Below the pieces are notes generated by a model. The model worked only from the letters and a program-made list of their open reading frames with translations, ran no database searches and was not told the origin of the DNA. This document shows positions 41,130-50,094 of a stretch of DNA of 50,096 nt, in pieces (the first letter of the stretch is position 1; the number at the start of each line of letters is the position of its first letter). The translations under genes were made by a program, and so were the position numbers. The stretch covers positions 1 to 50,096 of the forward strand of contig JAUHVL010000024.1 of NCBI GenBank assembly GCA_030425045.1, in the 5' to 3' direction. This DNA is from a bacterium (GTDB taxonomy: Bacteria; Bdellovibrionota; Bacteriovoracia; Bacteriovoracales; Bacteriovoracaceae).

Positions 41130-41534
41130 TTGCTTAAGAAGATATTGATATTACTTTTTATGATCTACGGTATGCATATTACCACAAGAGCAGAAGAAGG
41201 TCGTTTTAGTGTGGACACCATTGTTGAGTTTCCAAGGGAGACTTATATCTGTGGGCCATCAGTTATTTTAGGCCATGGCGAGAATGATCTTTTTATCTTT
41301 ATGAGTCCTACTTTTGAAGGCTGCAAAGATATTCACGAAATATGGGATAAAGACCTGCAGGATACACAAATCATTATTGAGCCTATAAAGGCATCGTTAG
41401 AAAATTTTGTCAGAATCAGACCTGGCGTAAATATGATTCCTGAAACATATGAATTTTTATGTGTTGATATTGTCGCCTATGATAAGCGAGAGTCTTCTAA
41501 ACTCTATGCTGTAGATTATTATATCTATAAATAA
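41130..41534 (+). CDS. Small secreted protein, unknown
   Basis: 134 residues from a TTG start with AGGA 6 bp upstream. A signal peptide (about residues 1-21) is followed by a strand-rich acidic domain with three cysteines (YICGPS, GCKDI, FLCVD). No family recognised. It is divergent from ribD and its last 38 bp overlap the 3' end of the radical SAM/aminotransferase gene on the other strand. Confidence 0.62.
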   Translation: MLKKILILLFMIYGMHITTRAEEGRFSVDTIVEFPRETYICGPSVILGHGENDLFIFMSPTFEGCKDIHEIWDKDLQDTQIIIEPIKASLENFVRIRPGVNMIPETYEFLCVDIVAYDKRESSKLYAVDYYIYK

Positions 41535-43455
41535 ACTCTTTTAAAATTCCCTTAATTTTAATGGCCATTAGTCTCGTCTGCTCAAGAGATAGAGTTGGGT
41601 CTATATCGAGTTTCAGTGTTGAGTTTAAAATTTGATAAGAGCTTAAAAAGTTAATCTTATGATATTTTTTAGTTGAAACATTCTTTAAAGGGTTAGTCTT
41701 TTCACTATAGGAAGCACGAGTGCCAAGAAAATCTCCCCACTTCCAAACGGCATGTGCTGGTCTCATGGAAACAGGCAAGCATTCAAATGAGTAGGCCATC
41801 ATTTTTTTACTGATAAAGGCAGCAAGTTTTGGGTTATCTAATGAAAAATGAAGAGCATGATGGCATTCGCCATTTTGATCATGTCCGCGTGGTATCATGA
41901 TTTCCTCTAACTCATGTAAAAAGATTTCTTTTCTCTCACGATAACAATTCATGATCATGTCGAGTTTTCCAAGCTGAACGTTGGCCAGGGCACCTGTAAT
42001 TTCAGAAACACGCATTGAGTGTCCTAAAAATGGAGTGATATGGTGAAACTTATCGTGATGAAGTTGATTGAATGAATATCCATGATCAGTACAGCAGAGA
42101 AGTCTTTCGTAGAGAATAGGGCATTTTGTGGCCACAATCCCGCCTTCGCCAGTGGTGATATTTTTATCAACATTTAAAGAGTAACAACCAATATCTCCAA
42201 AAGATCCTAAATACTGACCTTTGTATTTTCCTCCGATTGCTTGAGCAGTATCTTCGATAAGTTTAAGACTGTATTTCTCTTTTAAGGAAACGAGATCATC
42301 CATTGAGCACGGTAGGCCATCCATATGAACGGCAATGATTGCTTTTGTTTTTTCTGTAATAAGATTTTCACTTTCTTTTACGTTAATCGTTAAGGTTTCA
42401 TCGATATTAGCGATAACTGGTATGGCACCACGGTTGAGAATCGCGGCGGCTGTTGCGATATAAGTATAACTTGGAATGATGACTTCATCGCCTGGCCCAA
42501 TTTCTAAGGCCATGAGCGCAGCAATGAGAGCATTTGTTCCACTATTGATTAATACGGAACCATGAAAACCAAATTTTTCTGAAAAATTATTCTCAAACGT
42601 TTCACAGTGACTTTTTTCTTTTTGATAACGATAGAGTTTTTTACTTGTCAAAAGTTCAGTTAAGACCGTTACTTCCTTTTCATCGAGAAAGTGTTTGTTG
42701 GGTTTAATGACCTTTTGAGTGTCTGGTAAATCAGTGCGGTTGCATTTTGAGCAATTTGAGTATTTATGACGATGGCCTTTCGTGAGATCATTTCGAAAAT
42801 GAGTGTATTGATCGCTATTCCAAACTTCACTAAGAGAGTGTTCCTTTAGATTACCAAAGGTTAACTCTTGATGATAATCTTCAAAACAGCTTATGACATT
42901 TCCTTCAACTGAAATCGTCATGACGTAACTAGGGACGTGACAAGGTAAACGATTGTTAAAATGAATATTATCTTTAATGGGTAAGATTCCACCCCGATTG
43001 AAAAGATCGATCTCATCATATCTTCTAAAATTAACTTTTGCTTTTTGCTCTGGTGATAGATCTAAATAAACATCTTCAAAAGGATATTTCTTTTCTTGAT
43101 GATGTTTTGTGATAATAAATTGGTCAATAGAGCGATTGATACGATTAAATGTTTCAAGGTTATTAATTTTGCTTCCATTTGAATAGAGAACAAAGGTTGC
43201 CAAAGGAAGTTTTTCTCTCGCATATTCCGAAAACTGATAATAGTTTTTCGATAATAAGGGCTCATTGTAAAACATATAACTGAGTTTGCCTGTATAGTTA
43301 TGTTCAGAAAGCTCATCGATGATTTTTTTAAAAAGTTCAGGATCCATATCTCCCGTTTCAACTCTCTTAGAGATTGAATTTGGGCAGTACTCACAAGAAC
43401 GATTACAGTTGGTATTGATTTCAATTTCTATTTGTGAAGGTAGTTTACTACTCAT
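41497..43455 (-). CDS. Fusion of radical SAM/SPASM enzyme and DegT-type PLP aminotransferase
   Basis: 652 residues in one uninterrupted frame. N-terminal half (about 1-245): radical SAM cluster motif Cys17-x3-Cys21-x2-Cys24, the MFYNEP and YSNGSKI strands, and a SPASM-type auxiliary-cluster region with Cys172, Cys190, Cys235 and Cys238. C-terminal half (about 255-645): DegT/DnrJ/EryC1 aminotransferase with INSGTNAL, EVIIPSYTYIATAAA, IEDTAQAIGG (Asp402) and the PLP lysine Lys431 in CYSLNVDKNITTGEGG. Both active sites look complete. Members usually act on keto sugars or cyclitols. By analogy with BtrN and BtrS, the fusion may turn a secondary alcohol into an amine. It overlaps the upstream acyltransferase gene by 4 bp. 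Confidence 0.9.
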   Translation of the reverse strand: MSSKLPSQIEIEINTNCNRSCEYCPNSISKRVETGDMDPELFKKIIDELSEHNYTGKLSYMFYNEPLLSKNYYQFSEYAREKLPLATFVLYSNGSKINNLETFNRINRSIDQFIITKHHQEKKYPFEDVYLDLSPEQKAKVNFRRYDEIDLFNRGGILPIKDNIHFNNRLPCHVPSYVMTISVEGNVISCFEDYHQELTFGNLKEHSLSEVWNSDQYTHFRNDLTKGHRHKYSNCSKCNRTDLPDTQKVIKPNKHFLDEKEVTVLTELLTSKKLYRYQKEKSHCETFENNFSEKFGFHGSVLINSGTNALIAALMALEIGPGDEVIIPSYTYIATAAAILNRGAIPVIANIDETLTINVKESENLITEKTKAIIAVHMDGLPCSMDDLVSLKEKYSLKLIEDTAQAIGGKYKGQYLGSFGDIGCYSLNVDKNITTGEGGIVATKCPILYERLLCCTDHGYSFNQLHHDKFHHITPFLGHSMRVSEITGALANVQLGKLDMIMNCYRERKEIFLHELEEIMIPRGHDQNGECHHALHFSLDNPKLAAFISKKMMAYSFECLPVSMRPAHAVWKWGDFLGTRASYSEKTNPLKNVSTKKYHKINFLSSYQILNSTLKLDIDPTLSLEQTRLMAIKIKGILKEFIYRYNNLQHRV

Positions 43456-44474
43456 GAGGGTAAGTCCTGAAGCGTAACGTGAGGTAAGTCTCCGCTCATT
43501 TTAGTATTGGTGTAAATATTTTTAACCCAATTTTTCATGATTTTAAAAGTTGTTTCACAATCAACGTTTAAGGATGAATGTAAACGTAGTGAAAGAATAG
43601 TATGTCCATTCCAGTTTAGAACACCGGCAGCTACCGGGACAACTGCTGTAGCTAGTGAAATAGGAATCCATAAAAACTGATCGATTTCACTTTGGTTTTG
43701 GTGAGTGATATTTTTATTAGGCCATAGACCCAGGTTACTTAAAAAACCAAAAGCTTGATTCTTAGTTTTAGAAGCTAAGTAAAAGAGAAGTTTTTTAGGA
43801 ATATACTTTGGTAAAAGGGTGTATTGCCATGAGCCCCAGTGAAGATTTTCTCTGATAGCGTTATTTATTTCATCTTGAAGCTGACCCTCATGAATATCGT
43901 TTCCCGTATGAAGAACAAATGAAGAGGTAAAATTGCCAAAATCAAGTTTGTCTTTTTTCGTACGCATATTGATGGGAAGGATCCATTTTCTTCCATGATT
44001 ATTTTTAGTTAAATAGGGAAGACAAGCTTGATCGATTTGCGTTATGAGAAAACTAGAAAAATTTGTTTTTTTGGTTTCTGCTAGATGTGAGCTTTGTTCT
44101 TTTGTGAAGTAAGCATAGGCACATTCTTTATTTGCTCCTATATTTTGAAAGTTAATATCGTCTTTCCAAACATCATTCATTTTTCCCGCGTGAGAAAAAA
44201 AGCGGAACATGAGTTTTATTCGCTCCCATGGCCCTGGATCGCGACCAATAATTTGAAGAGGTAATCTTTTGATCTGGAATTGATTTTTCCTAAGAATATC
44301 GGCCAGCGCCCCGACCCCGTCAAAAGTACAATGTTTCCTTGTATGAATCGATATGGATTGATCTGTTAAGTTAAGTTTTAGATGATGAATATCTATCGAC
44401 TCACCAATGGCCTCAACGGCCTTGAATTTGAGACCAGACCATTCACATTCATGATTTTGAACAAGATCACTCAT
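43452..44474 (-). CDS. Short HxxxDG acyltransferase (CAT/condensation/PapA-like superfamily), copy 1
   Basis: 340 residues. The catalytic motif is His48-CTF-Asp52-Gly53 in RKHCTFDGVGAL, as in the CoA-dependent acyltransferase / condensation superfamily. RKWILPINMRTK, LHWGSWQYTLLP and AFGFLSNLGLWPN correspond to later conserved blocks; the last is the place of the DFGWG structural motif. In standard members the motif lies near residue 130, so this form lacks part of the N-terminal lobe. The copy at 44549 shares all these blocks. It should transfer an acyl group to an amine or alcohol. It ends 4 bp inside the radical SAM/aminotransferase gene, implying action on its product. Confidence 0.75.
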   Translation of the reverse strand: MSDLVQNHECEWSGLKFKAVEAIGESIDIHHLKLNLTDQSISIHTRKHCTFDGVGALADILRKNQFQIKRLPLQIIGRDPGPWERIKLMFRFFSHAGKMNDVWKDDINFQNIGANKECAYAYFTKEQSSHLAETKKTNFSSFLITQIDQACLPYLTKNNHGRKWILPINMRTKKDKLDFGNFTSSFVLHTGNDIHEGQLQDEINNAIRENLHWGSWQYTLLPKYIPKKLLFYLASKTKNQAFGFLSNLGLWPNKNITHQNQSEIDQFLWIPISLATAVVPVAAGVLNWNGHTILSLRLHSSLNVDCETTFKIMKNWVKNIYTNTKMSGDLPHVTLQDLPS

Positions 44475-44548
44475 AGTAAATTTATACCTTCGTAGATTTG
44501 TTTTGACGAGGAAACTTAGCTTATGGCATGATGCGTAGCGGAGAATTC

Positions 44549-45577
44549 ATGATCAATTTAGATAAACTTGGTGATCGCTTTAATGCTTTTAAAAAGCTTG
44601 GCGAGGAAACACGTATCCTTATTGGAAAAAGAAATGGAAATAAAACCGATGAGTGGAGTTTATACGAGCATCGTGATGTAGATGGAGTTGGGGTTCTGGT
44701 TAGTGAACTGGAAAAGTCTGTAAAAGTGACACATGTCCCTGAAATGAAAAACCCCATTAGACCATTGTGGCCTAAGTTACTTTATCTTTTTTTCAAATAT
44801 ATGAAATGGGCCTCTGGTGATAAACCCACATGGAATAAAAATTACAACTGGGATGTTGTTGGCCCACCTAAGACAAGCTCACTTTATTTTTTTTCTAAAG
44901 ATGTGACAGCTAAAATTCACCAATACTGTAAAGAGAATAAAGTATCTGTTACGTCCTTTTTTTTGGATGCTATTGATCACTCTTTAAGTGGGGAACTGCT
45001 TAATATCGATAAACGAAAATGGGTTGTTCCAATCAATATAAGAGGGTTTGTTGGTGAAAAAGTTGAGAAAAGAAATTTAAGTGTTGTCTGTCAAATATGG
45101 ATATCTGGTAATGAGTATAACGAGAGAAGAATTCAAGACAAATTGAAGAGCTTTTTAAAACAAGGCTTACACTGGGGAGGCTTTGTTAGTCTACTTATTC
45201 AAAGTAAATTATCCGAAAAAACTCTTATTAAAATATTAAAGAAACATAAAAATATTGCTCATGGACTTTTTACTAATATTGGGTCGTGGCCAAATAATTA
45301 TATAGAAGGAGATTTCCGTGACCATCTTGTTGTGGCCATACCAAGTTCACGTTTAATGCCCATCAGTTGTTTAATGTTAGAATTTCATGAGCAAATACAA
45401 CTGAATCTTTCTTTTCATCCCTGCTTAGGGATATCTGAGTTAGAACAGCAAAAATTGATGGAAAATTGGATAAACGTCAGTTATCAAAAATTGAATTTGG
45501 ACATTGAAGACGTTTTAATAGAGAATATAGCACTAAGAGATATTTTGAGTGGTAATGGATCCTTACAAACAAACTAA
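44549..45577 (+). CDS. Short HxxxDG acyltransferase (CAT/condensation/PapA-like superfamily), copy 2
   Basis: I choose the ATG at 44549 because GGAGA lies 5 bp before it; upstream ATGs at 44528 and 44531 lack a site. The 342-residue product has His41-RDV-Asp45-Gly46 (EHRDVDGVGVL), RKWVVPINIRGF, LHWGGFVSLL and AHGLFTNIGSWPN, which align with the divergent neighbour (HxxxDG, RKW-PIN-R, LHWG and G-N-G-WPN). The two are diverged paralogues and also share the short N-terminal lobe. It is coupled to the ceramidase gene, which begins 23 bp before its stop. Likely substrate type: a long-chain amine, alcohol or lipid; not shown by sequence. Confidence 0.75.
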   Translation: MINLDKLGDRFNAFKKLGEETRILIGKRNGNKTDEWSLYEHRDVDGVGVLVSELEKSVKVTHVPEMKNPIRPLWPKLLYLFFKYMKWASGDKPTWNKNYNWDVVGPPKTSSLYFFSKDVTAKIHQYCKENKVSVTSFFLDAIDHSLSGELLNIDKRKWVVPINIRGFVGEKVEKRNLSVVCQIWISGNEYNERRIQDKLKSFLKQGLHWGGFVSLLIQSKLSEKTLIKILKKHKNIAHGLFTNIGSWPNNYIEGDFRDHLVVAIPSSRLMPISCLMLEFHEQIQLNLSFHPCLGISELEQQKLMENWINVSYQKLNLDIEDVLIENIALRDILSGNGSLQTN

Positions 45578-46289
45578 TTCATATTCTATAGAGAAAGGTT
45601 GTCCTTGGTATGAAGCACAGCAAAGCTATGGGCCACCAAATATTGATTGGTGTGAGCCTTCTCATTGCTCTGTTTTTGATGAGCCTGCTAATACTTGGTC
45701 TAATTTGATATTTCTCATTGCTTTTTTTTATCTTTACAAGAAAATTAATGATTCTTTTATTCGCTTTTATGCAGTCACCTTATTTTTTGTAGGCCTATTC
45801 TCTGCTCTTTATCACGCCAGTAATAATGCCTTCTCTCAATTCTTTGATTTTGTCGGAATGTATTTAATGACAAGTATTATTTTGGCCTTTAATACCAATA
45901 GAACGAAGGCCCTTGGTACAAATATTTATAGTCAATTTTGGTTTTTTGCTTTTTTAAATATGGTCTTATTTATGTCTTTTGAATATATGGAAATACCGAT
46001 TCAATGGACAGTGGCACTTAATGTTTTTGCAACCATGTTTCTTGAGATTTTTAATGGCATCAAAGAGCAAAGTTTTAGACATTATAAGTATTTTTATTTT
46101 GGTTTTTTCTTTTTAGTCTTGGCACAGTCTTGTGCTATGATCGATTTAAATCGTATTTATTGTAATCCAAATAATCATGTTCTTCATGGACATGTGTTTT
46201 GGCATATTTTTAATGGAATATCATTAACATTTATCGGTCTTCATATGTTCTCAATCAGAAAGTTTCTTAATGAGAAAAAAACCTCTTAA
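45555..46289 (+). CDS. Alkaline ceramidase family membrane protein (CREST superfamily)
   Basis: 244 residues from the ATG at 45555, with seven predicted transmembrane helices. The complete catalytic set of alkaline ceramidases is present with the same spacing as in human ACER3: Ser83-x3-His87 (SALYHAS), Asp98 eleven residues later, and His213-x3-His217 (HGHVFWH), which would hold the zinc. The N-terminal DWCEP and FDEPANTWSN correspond to the calcium-binding DWCE and EFWNTVSN region, with a two-residue shorter gap. Family members hydrolyse the amide of ceramides to sphingoid base and fatty acid. It overlaps the acyltransferase gene by 23 bp. Fits the ceramide operon near the left end of the window. 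Confidence 0.88.
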   Translation: MDPYKQTNSYSIEKGCPWYEAQQSYGPPNIDWCEPSHCSVFDEPANTWSNLIFLIAFFYLYKKINDSFIRFYAVTLFFVGLFSALYHASNNAFSQFFDFVGMYLMTSIILAFNTNRTKALGTNIYSQFWFFAFLNMVLFMSFEYMEIPIQWTVALNVFATMFLEIFNGIKEQSFRHYKYFYFGFFFLVLAQSCAMIDLNRIYCNPNNHVLHGHVFWHIFNGISLTFIGLHMFSIRKFLNEKKTS

Positions 46290-46620
46290 TTAAAAAATAT
46301 AATTTATTAAAGGTGCCCATTTTGAAGTTTGTGACTTTCCCCAAATAAAATTCTTTTTTAATAGGATAATCATTACTTTCTGGGTTTTTAAAACTTGATG
46401 TTTGAATTGAATTCTTAAGATTGACGACAAAATGACAAGTTAAATGATCAAATTCGTAAAAGACGATAATATCAAATAATTTTAAATGTTCTGTTTGTTT
46501 TACTGTAATCAAGTCATTTATTTTTATAAGGGGGGACATAGAGTCAGAGGCAATATTGAAAGTTAATACTTTATCTTTTTTGAGTCTGTTTTTAAGTGCT
46601 AAAAATTGAATTTTATCCAA
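46267..46620 (-). CDS. Small S24/S26 signal-peptidase-like protein
   Basis: Read from TTG ending at 46620, with AAAGGA 6 bp upstream, this gives 117 residues; a TTG at 46635 is an alternative. It resembles the catalytic core of S26-type proteins: IASDSMSPLIKINDLITVK (Ser-Met with Pro), KLFDIIVFYEF for the GDIVVF strand and LTCHFVV, where His replaces the general-base Lys as in SipW/archaeal-type enzymes. No transmembrane helix is visible, unlike true signal peptidases. Small soluble proteins of this type occur next to biosynthetic gene clusters. It is convergent with the ceramidase gene (23 bp overlap). Function unclear. Confidence 0.65.
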   Translation of the reverse strand: MDKIQFLALKNRLKKDKVLTFNIASDSMSPLIKINDLITVKQTEHLKLFDIIVFYEFDHLTCHFVVNLKNSIQTSSFKNPESNDYPIKKEFYLGKVTNFKMGTFNKLYFLIKRFFSH

Positions 46621-46657
46621 AAAGTATCCTTTCAAAAATTATAACTTTTTAGATAGA

Positions 46658-47484: not shown

Positions 47485-48459
47485 ATGGACTTAGACAATG
47501 TACTTAGTGAATTATTGAAAATCGTCAGAGGGAGCAAGAGTCAAAATCAATTAAGCCAAGCACTTGGTTTTTCTGATAACCGCTATAATCGTTGGGAGAA
47601 TTTAAAAAAACCTTTGTATTGGTCTGATTTTGTAAGACTATGCCAACTTCAAAAAATAGATTTAAAATCCATTTTAAATGAGGTGTTTAATTATGAAGGG
47701 GAATTAACGACTTCAGAAATTGTTAACTTCTTTAGCTCATCTTGGAGTGGTAAGGAGCTTAATCATGTTATTTCTAGCGTTCATGAAAAAACGATTAACC
47801 GCTGGATCACAGGAGAGTCTGAACCAAAGCTCGTTGCCCTTTTTGAATTAATTGAAGTGACCCAACACATTCTCTATGAATTTTTAAATGAAATTATGTT
47901 ACATTGTGATGAAAGATCACATCTCATTGAACAAAAATATAACGAGCATATAAACTTGAAAAAAGTCTTTTATGGAAGGCCTGAATCAATTTATATTATT
48001 ATCTGTACAGAACTAGATCTCTATAAAAAGAATCATCATTCAGATCATTTTCATTTTTTCTCCGAGACTCTTAATTTTGAGTATGAGTTAGTAAAAGAGG
48101 TGTGTGAAGCAATGATGAACCTTGGTATTTTGATCAAAGATGATGAGCATTTTGTGTTTAATCCACTTTCAAAAGCAACAGCATCGAGAAAAAGTATTGA
48201 TGATGAGTTAACAAGAAAATCCCTTGAGACGAGGCTTGATCTTACAAAACAATATTTATACTTTAGAAAAAAAGAGAAAGATCTTTTCTTTGATAAAACA
48301 TTCGTTTCAAATGAAAAACTTGATCATCAAATTAATGAAGTGGTTAAAAAATGTATGCGTGATATTTCTAAGCTGATCAAAGACTCAAATACTAAGGGTG
48401 AGACGTTTGACAGGCTAAGAGTATTAAATTTACAAAGCTACGATCACTTAAGAGATTAG
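47485..48459 (+). CDS. Tandem-HTH transcriptional regulator, TIGR02147/DUF4423-like
   Basis: Start taken at the ATG 47485 with GAGAAG upstream; a GTG at 47458 is possible. 324 residues. The N-terminal third contains two XRE-like helix-turn-helix units in tandem: SQNQLSQALGFSDNRYNRWE followed by WSDFVRLCQ, and KELNHVISSVHEKTINRWI followed by PKLVALFELIE. The rest resembles the C-terminal domain of the TIGR02147 family, which is expanded in Bdellovibrio relatives and Fibrobacter, with a winged-helix-like LVKEVCEAMMNLGILIKDDEHFVFN. Probably a DNA-binding regulator. Its target is unknown; the 143-bp gap upstream shows no clear promoter. It ends 12 bp inside the convergent methyltransferase gene. 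Confidence 0.75.
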   Translation: MDLDNVLSELLKIVRGSKSQNQLSQALGFSDNRYNRWENLKKPLYWSDFVRLCQLQKIDLKSILNEVFNYEGELTTSEIVNFFSSSWSGKELNHVISSVHEKTINRWITGESEPKLVALFELIEVTQHILYEFLNEIMLHCDERSHLIEQKYNEHINLKKVFYGRPESIYIIICTELDLYKKNHHSDHFHFFSETLNFEYELVKEVCEAMMNLGILIKDDEHFVFNPLSKATASRKSIDDELTRKSLETRLDLTKQYLYFRKKEKDLFFDKTFVSNEKLDHQINEVVKKCMRDISKLIKDSNTKGETFDRLRVLNLQSYDHLRD

Positions 48460-50094
48460 TTTTTCATAAAGCGAACTTGGGACACAAAAATAATTTACAG
48501 AAATAGCTGGGTTGTATCCGTCTTTTTTAGGGTGTGGGTAAACTTTTCTTGTTCTTGTGGTGAACTTTTCTAGAATTTTATATCCACCAAGCTCTGCACA
48601 TTTTTTCCAACTAAATCTCGCACCAGGTTTTTCTTCATTATCAATAGCAGGCCTTAGTCCTTGTCCCGATAAATCATGTACGTATCTAAAACCAGCATGG
48701 TAGGTGTTCCACCCTGTCGCCAAGAGGTCTTCATTTGTTAGTCCAGACTCTTCAGTAAAAATTAAAATTAAGTTTGCTGAGACATAACCTTTAAACACTT
48801 TGACCATTTTCTCATTATCTTGATTTCTCACTTCATGAAAACCATTTCCAACGACCATGACCGCAGAGTCAAGATTGCCATTATGCGTTTTACAAATTCC
48901 TTGAATGAGTATTTCAGGTTTTCCAATATCGGCGTTATGAACAAACTTCATATTTCCAGGGAGCTTGTTTGCCTTTTGGTTTTCTTTTGCTTTTTCAATG
49001 GCAGAGTCTTCTAGATCAGCACCAAAGTATTGGATACTTTCTTCACCACTTCTTTCGAACCGTTGTCTTGTTGCCTCTCCTTGTCCAACAGCATGTTCAA
49101 TAAAGGTTGTGTATTGATAGCGGTATTCTTCACAAAAAGAGTCGAGAGCGTCGTTTATTTGTTTGAAACTTTTACTATTGGCATCTTGGCTAGCGGATAC
49201 ATTCTCTCCACGAGCGACCCAAATATCTTCAGTATTTCCTTTTAATAATTTGTCGTGATTACTGAGATAACCATGATAAGCATGAATAATCCCATAAGGA
49301 CCTGGTCCTCTCGTGAAAATTCTTTCACCAAGTTCAGAAATGGTTCTATCGTTTTCTGATAAAACACCCGCTTTTGATAGAAGAATTCTCATACTTTTTG
49401 ATAGCTTTATTGCAATGGAGCCTATCTCAACACCTTTTTTAAACTTATCTTGAACCTCTAAATATCTTGTCGCTAAAACGAGAGGAAGTATTCTAAAGCC
49501 AATCTGGATATCCTCGTATGTGGCCATCCAGTTGTGAGGATGTTCGTCAAGACTATTATAGGAAAAGAAGTTTTCTACTAAGTCTGGTTGATCACAGTTA
49601 CCAACAAAATATTCCACAATATGATAAATCATATTTCTCGGAGTAAATTCATCTAGGGAATTAAACTGAGTAAAAATCTTTTTATTGTTTACTGAGTATT
49701 GATCATTGTCTTTTGTTAAATAACCTCTTGAAGTTAGAAAATTGAGGTCATAGTTTAATACTTCACTTTCTACTTTTAAAAATGAGGCCAAATCGTCGCA
49801 ATTGAAATGGTTTTGTAGACTAAAAAATGACTCAATATTTAACTGACGGTAAGTCGAAAAAATTTGTCTCAATAACCAGAGATCTGATGGTGCTGTAACA
49901 GCAGCAGTTAATGTGACTCTTTTAAGGACGCTTATCGCTCTTTGTATATTGTTCTTTATCTCGCTTTCATTAGATTCATTGATATAAAATTCTATATCTG
50001 AAAGAGTTTCTAAAAGGAGTTCCCCGTTTTTAAAGAGGTGGGGAATATTATTTAAAAAACTTTGGTATGAGTTTTCAGCTAGGATAGGATAACC
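48448..50094 (-). CDS. Class I SAM methyltransferase-like protein, truncated by the right window edge
   Basis: The frame stays open from the stop at 48448 to the window edge (first full codon ends at 50094), so the gene starts outside; the TTG at 49872 is only internal. At least 549 codons are visible. The N-terminal part seen here is helical, with winged-helix-like segments (CDDLASFLKVESEVLNYDL, SRGYLTKDNDQYSV) as in multidomain methyltransferases. A Rossmann core follows: FIEHAVGQGEATRQRF (G-x-G motif I), FGADLEDSAIEKA (acidic motif II) and a C-terminal region with NGFHEVRN. No substrate can be assigned. It overlaps the convergent regulator by 12 bp. Confidence 0.72.
   Translation of the reverse strand, partial: GYPILAENSYQSFLNNIPHLFKNGELLLETLSDIEFYINESNESEIKNNIQRAISVLKRVTLTAAVTAPSDLWLLRQIFSTYRQLNIESFFSLQNHFNCDDLASFLKVESEVLNYDLNFLTSRGYLTKDNDQYSVNNKKIFTQFNSLDEFTPRNMIYHIVEYFVGNCDQPDLVENFFSYNSLDEHPHNWMATYEDIQIGFRILPLVLATRYLEVQDKFKKGVEIGSIAIKLSKSMRILLSKAGVLSENDRTISELGERIFTRGPGPYGIIHAYHGYLSNHDKLLKGNTEDIWVARGENVSASQDANSKSFKQINDALDSFCEEYRYQYTTFIEHAVGQGEATRQRFERSGEESIQYFGADLEDSAIEKAKENQKANKLPGNMKFVHNADIGKPEILIQGICKTHNGNLDSAVMVVGNGFHEVRNQDNEKMVKVFKGYVSANLILIFTEESGLTNEDLLATGWNTYHAGFRYVHDLSGQGLRPAIDNEEKPGARFSWKKCAELGGYKILEKFTTRTRKVYPHPKKDGYNPAISVNYFCVPSSLYEKLIS

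Follow-up and report, generated by a model that had tools for sequence, protein, structure and literature searches.

The window, by which we mean the whole stretch of DNA analysed (50,096 nucleotides), carries on its reverse strand a gene whose product joins a radical SAM domain to a DegT-type aminotransferase. The features on which we draw are the following.

41497-43455, reverse strand: fusion gene, BtrN-type twitch radical SAM domain plus KdnA-clade DegT aminotransferase, 652 amino acids
42724-43446, reverse strand: AdoMet radical/twitch domain, residues 4-244, BtrN-like over its whole length (phmmer against 4m7s)
43384-43407, reverse strand: CxxxCxxC radical SAM cluster motif, Cys17/Cys21/Cys24, aligned to BtrN Cys16/20/23
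42994-42996, reverse strand: Arg154, at the position of BtrN Arg152, arginine without exception in the 8 fusions and the 22 stand-alone relatives
42742-42942, reverse strand: auxiliary [4Fe-4S] ligands Cys172, Cys190, Cys235 and Cys238, aligned to BtrN Cys169/187/232/235
41536-42696, reverse strand: DegT fold-type-I PLP aminotransferase, KdnA clade, residues ~254-640 (Pfam 2.2e-69)
42163-42252, reverse strand: PLP residues Asp402 (42250-42252) and Lys431 (42163-42165)
43452-44474, reverse strand: predicted HxxxDG acyltransferase (condensation/PapA5/BAHD fold), directly upstream of the fusion gene
44528-45577, forward strand: second, paralogous acyltransferase (25% identity to its neighbour), divergently transcribed, membership uncertain
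46267-46635, reverse strand: small S24/S26-like protein (Pfam Peptidase_S24), member of a family found in the relatives' cluster

The fusion gene starts with ATG and is intact, with 0 internal stops, and Pfam recognised both parts of its product (Radical_SAM, residues 12-106; SPASM, 172-239; DegT_DnrJ_EryC1, 258-536, E=2.2e-69). This bears out the description, in an earlier note on this DNA, of a single polypeptide that combines the two enzyme types. The earlier note had named a sequencing error hiding a stop between two genes as an alternative. We checked for such an artefact and rejected it, as the same architecture occurs in nine genomes. When 129 genomes of the family were searched, fusion-type frames of 646-654 amino acids were found in G092, G089, G110, G077, G002, G094 and G095 and a partial one at a contig end in G096, which together with the source genome (G000) gives nine genomes in six genera. 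The homologues share 42-52% identity over the whole length. A single origin of the fusion is supported by a tree of the N-terminal domain, in which the fusions form one clade (97/92) within a larger BtrN-like clade; the tree of the C-terminal domain allows a single origin and does not settle it.

Both kinds of component enzyme are already known; the fused architecture is new. Literature searches turned up no described or characterised radical SAM-DegT fusion, just as none had been known to the author of the earlier note. A scan of a genome collection with the full fusion protein returned no fusion and only two remote DegT relatives (Lentisphaeria and Bacteroidetes); beyond the phylum, genomes were scanned by short peptide patterns only, which limits the claim of novelty. 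A plasmid search gave partial matches, and no record in it covered 80% of the fusion.

We compared the N-terminal half with solved structures. BtrN, the radical SAM DOIA dehydrogenase of Bacillus circulans (PDB 4m7s/4m7t), matched residues 4-244 with E=8e-59 and was the only protein in the PDB that matched this half at E≤0.001. The analogy to BtrN that had been drawn from the sequence was thus well founded, and the full-length match makes it specific to BtrN rather than to radical SAM proteins at large. In an alignment of 8 fusions with 22 stand-alone and 6 distant relatives, Cys17/21/24 and the four auxiliary cysteines are invariant. All fusions, and most of the stand-alone relatives, retain BtrN positions F61, Y62, Y90, H117, R152, F188 and E189; the remote paralogues all have R152 but have mostly lost the other positions. 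BtrN Arg152 is a putative substrate or base position. The correspondence of the auxiliary cysteines to those of BtrN indicates a 'twitch' domain with one cluster and not a SPASM domain with two, as the auxiliary domain of BtrN is of the one-cluster type (PMC9012708). The likeness to BtrN therefore extends over the whole half and includes the CxxxCxxC motif, the four auxiliary cysteines, the Arg152 position and the type of auxiliary cluster. What sets the fusion apart is the aminotransferase to which this half is joined.

For the C-terminal half, the best match in the PDB was KdnA (5k8b; 2.4e-54), followed by other sugar aminotransferases (2e-42 and weaker). With a profile of ten stand-alone aminotransferase relatives, KdnA was again the best PDB match (7.7e-92 over the full length; next 5e-66), and the same was true of a fold comparison (Foldseek 3.5e-29). 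In a tree of this domain the fusions fall into a clade with KdnA (100/98 among the sampled sequences, with outgroups from the same phylum only). Lys431 aligns with the KdnA lysine and, like Asp402 and the cysteines of the other half, is invariant among the 8 aligned fusions, so that the earlier observation that both halves keep their catalytic residues holds. The earlier note had named BtrS as the counterpart of this half, and here the data point elsewhere. BtrS/BtrR (2c7t, 5w71), the butirosin aminotransferase, belongs to the DegT superfamily and shares a pathway with BtrN, but it is not fused and matches the C-terminal half more weakly than KdnA does (5e-38 vs 2e-54). By sequence, profile and tree, the DegT half is placed with KdnA, an enzyme of 8-amino-Kdo synthesis, and not with BtrS.

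In Shewanella oneidensis, KdnA works with KdnB, a separate, iron-dependent alcohol dehydrogenase; KdnB oxidizes an alcohol, and KdnA aminates the resulting carbonyl. KdnA is the closest solved DegT relative of the fusion, which would share with KdnA/KdnB the logic of hydroxyl oxidation followed by transamination but would use a fused radical SAM domain in place of a separate iron enzyme. The KdnA relationship is the best clue to the substrate; a Kdo-like higher sugar or a hexose is favoured over a cyclitol.

A narrower form of this explanation is that the fusion is an 8-amino-8-deoxy-Kdo synthase in which the radical domain replaces KdnB and the DegT domain is KdnA. The match to KdnA and the shared clade speak for it, as do cytidylyltransferase (CMP-Kdo-synthetase-like) genes near the fusion or aminotransferase in G002 and G014. 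In G089 the fusion comes after kdsB-pyrG-kdsA-kdsC-gpsA; we gave this adjacency little weight as proof of Kdo chemistry, since the same set is a housekeeping neighbourhood that occurs without the fusion in G000, G092, G094 and G027. Near most loci, however, there is no cytidylyltransferase gene; a long branch leads to KdnA, and the fusions have a different C-terminal motif (RPAH..WKW vs NNWHYLKNW in KdnA). We consider this narrower assignment rather unlikely.

Do the two halves belong to one pathway? Relatives that lack the fusion encode the halves in separate genes, which in some of them are neighbours. The BtrN-like gene of G352 (L113) is directly followed and overlapped by the aminotransferase gene. 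In G062 (L114) the BtrN-like, MDR dehydrogenase and aminotransferase genes all lie within 4 kb, and in G020 (L060) the same three stand in one row, the MDR gene in the middle, and are adjoined by rib genes as in the window. The aminotransferase is present in 28 of 124 family genomes, with one copy in each. A close BtrN-like gene occurs in 23 of the 124, all of them among these 28, and the MDR dehydrogenase likewise in 23, all among the 28 (Fisher p=1.6e-20 in each case, kinship ignored). The fusion, the operonic split homologues and this nested co-occurrence together place the two halves in one pathway. Genes at L059 and L068 that we had at first taken for adjacent aminotransferases were discarded, as a domain search gave no match to the DegT half.

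The MDR dehydrogenase raises the alternative that, within a shared pathway, each domain has a substrate molecule of its own or the two catalyse non-consecutive steps, the fusion securing stoichiometry and co-expression only; the aminotransferase would take a ketone made by the MDR enzyme while the radical domain oxidizes elsewhere. A parallel is 2-deoxystreptamine synthesis, in which one aminotransferase acts twice. The co-occurrence of MDR and aminotransferase genes and the position of MDR genes in G020 and beside several fusions agree with this alternative. Five genomes carry the aminotransferase without a close BtrN-like gene (three with the MDR dehydrogenase, two with neither), and there the aminotransferase needs another carbonyl source; most of the other aminotransferase genomes carry both oxidants, so that the dehydrogenase role could be split differently. 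In the source genome, however, no MDR homologue was found at E<1e-20, and the radical domain is the obvious source of a carbonyl. We regard this alternative as unlikely.

DegT aminotransferases, like radical SAM alcohol dehydrogenases, are found in the synthesis of aminoglycosides and amino sugars. The earlier proposal of a one-protein alcohol-to-amine converter is, on the sequence evidence, supported as the best reading, because the fusion, the split operons and the nested co-occurrence put the halves in a shared pathway. We consider it probable that the fusion is a bifunctional alcohol-to-amine enzyme and that its amino sugar enters a conserved pathway for an envelope or secreted glycoconjugate. 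The BtrN-type domain would abstract a hydrogen from a sugar at a carbinol carbon; with the second electron passing to the auxiliary [4Fe-4S] cluster, a ketone or aldehyde would result. The fused KdnA-clade domain would then transaminate this carbonyl with PLP, using glutamate or glutamine as donor, and the resulting amino sugar would feed a pathway with a carbamoyltransferase, GT4 glycosyltransferases, an ABC-2 exporter, a PqqD protein and twitch radical SAM enzymes. Radical oxidation is most likely judging by the homology to BtrN, and transamination by that to KdnA; from the fusion and the co-occurrence we infer that the two steps are coupled. An AlphaFold model of the fusion protein (pLDDT 73.9, pTM 0.57) is too weak to fix the domain arrangement or to judge whether the two sites face each other or share a channel. 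If the reading is right, a single polypeptide would convert an unactivated C-OH to C-NH2 with AdoMet and an amino donor, which would make it a compact biocatalyst, and the natural fusion removes the usual guess as to which aminotransferase serves which oxidant.

The order of the reactions could be the reverse, with the DegT domain aminating first and the radical domain then deaminating, epimerizing or oxidizing next to the amine, the last being what BtrN does to its aminocyclitol. The order of the domains is uninformative on this point. A precedent would be DesI/DesII of desosamine synthesis, a DegT aminotransferase and a radical SAM enzyme acting in consecutive steps on one sugar; this pair resembles the fusion in its two components but runs in the opposite order and ends in a deamination. 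The substrate of BtrN is already aminated (PMC9012708). Amination first needs a carbonyl source ahead of the DegT step, however, and no obvious one lies close to the gene in the source genome. We hold the reverse order to be improbable and retain oxidation followed by transamination.

A closer copy of the butirosin pathway, in which a diaminocyclitol is made from an inosose, can be judged by its cyclitol-forming enzymes. Among characterised proteins the N-terminal half has BtrN as its closest homologue, and on two predicted viral contigs a DegT gene, a gene for a DHQ-synthase-type cyclase and one for a remote relative of BtrN stand side by side. Against this, a single DHQ-synthase gene is present in 15 of the 16 bacterial genomes examined, among them each of the eight fusion genomes in this sample. 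The source genome has one match, presumably aroB, and no second DHQ-synthase-type cyclase or dedicated DOI synthase was found in it, in which respect it differs from the BtrN pathway. Inositol-1-phosphate synthase (Ino1) is absent from 24 of the 28 genomes searched, including G000, with inositol uptake as a possible alternative source. These searches, together with a DegT half nearer to KdnA than to BtrS/BtrR, make a butirosin-like cyclitol very improbable, and of the butirosin analogy in the earlier note the BtrS and cyclitol part is not supported.

The viral rows (IMG/VR; L150:4195-8430 and L151:4209-8443) consist of a cytidylyltransferase-like gene, the DegT gene, the cyclase, the remote BtrN relative (E=4e-10 to BtrN) and a SIS-domain gene. 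DHQ synthase is a closer match to the cyclase than DOI synthase is, and the row is possibly a virus-borne aminocyclitol-like set. As a separate observation, four of the family genomes searched have the aminotransferase but lack a close BtrN-like gene, and three of these four encode inositol-phosphate synthase, as does none of the BtrN-bearing family genomes searched (genomes listed: G065, G071, G075 and G337; small numbers, no baseline).

The surroundings of the fusion in relatives suggest where the amino sugar may go. The fusions of G094 and G095 are part of a cluster that also encodes a carbamoyltransferase, three GT4 glycosyltransferases, an ABC-2 transporter pair, a PqqD protein, twitch radical SAM proteins, an S74-domain protein and an S24-like protein. 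The nearest relatives of the carbamoyltransferase of G062 are decarbamoylnovobiocin carbamoyltransferase, GdmN and TobZ. The aminotransferase or fusion adjoins the carbamoyltransferase cluster at L073, L074, L064, L113, L114, L115, L145 and L146, the last six being stand-alone aminotransferases beside genes of the set. More than half of the fusions are not in the cluster and have other genes as neighbours (L058, L067, L069, L070, L072), and the fusion in the window neighbours rib genes and acyltransferases. In the source genome much of the cluster is on another contig, C9 (L142), with an S74 protein, a GT4 glycosyltransferase, a PqqD protein, the carbamoyltransferase, a twitch radical SAM protein and two divergent members. 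We infer that the fusion feeds this pathway from its separate contig. The S24-like gene at 46267-46635, 2.8 kb from the fusion, is the only copy in the source genome; its family was seen in nine loci of the set and in 26 of 28 aminotransferase genomes vs 29 of 96 others (p=1.7e-9).

The fused and split forms together point to a pathway for a carbamoylated amino-glycoconjugate that is conserved in this bacterial family and apparently undescribed. More tentatively, this widespread pathway might make a RiPP-like glycoconjugate: twitch radical SAM enzymes would modify a PqqD/S74-like peptide or protein, GT4 enzymes would attach to it a sugar that is carbamoylated and also aminated by the fused BtrN-KdnA enzyme, and the ABC-2 transporter would export the product. 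We consider this possible but doubtful. The S74-domain protein could be the modified precursor of such a product. It is a cluster protein of ~150 amino acids (L142:1818-2285, L074:1996-2442, L120:10866-11630 and others) in which a YLDVFAGSD segment is invariant (9 of 9 aligned) at the expected start of the S74 domain. In L120 a PqqD-like domain precedes it.

The gene directly upstream of the fusion (43452-44474) overlaps its start by 4 nt and is its probable co-transcribed partner. Its product had no Pfam match, and H48 and D52 of its HxxxDG motif are invariant in 17 homologues. An AF2 model (pLDDT 87.9) had NRPS E/Cy/C domains, PapA5 and TRI3 as its nearest Foldseek matches, and the product is probably an acyltransferase. 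As a guess, it might acylate the amine made by the fusion. A Ceramidase-family (PF05875) membrane protein is encoded near the acyltransferase pair (45549-46289), and this ceramidase-like gene and the two adjoining HxxxDG acyltransferases are no more than circumstantial evidence for a sphingoid substrate. At the end of the window, a 548-amino-acid ORF (48448-50094), open at the border, matched no known family apart from a weak methyltransferase hit. A further paralogue of the window acyltransferase is found on contig C35 of the source genome (L110:3830-13058), in an operon-like row with two KASIII genes, an AMP-ligase, an epimerase-type SDR and two short-chain dehydrogenases that resembles a lipid/olefin-type cluster.
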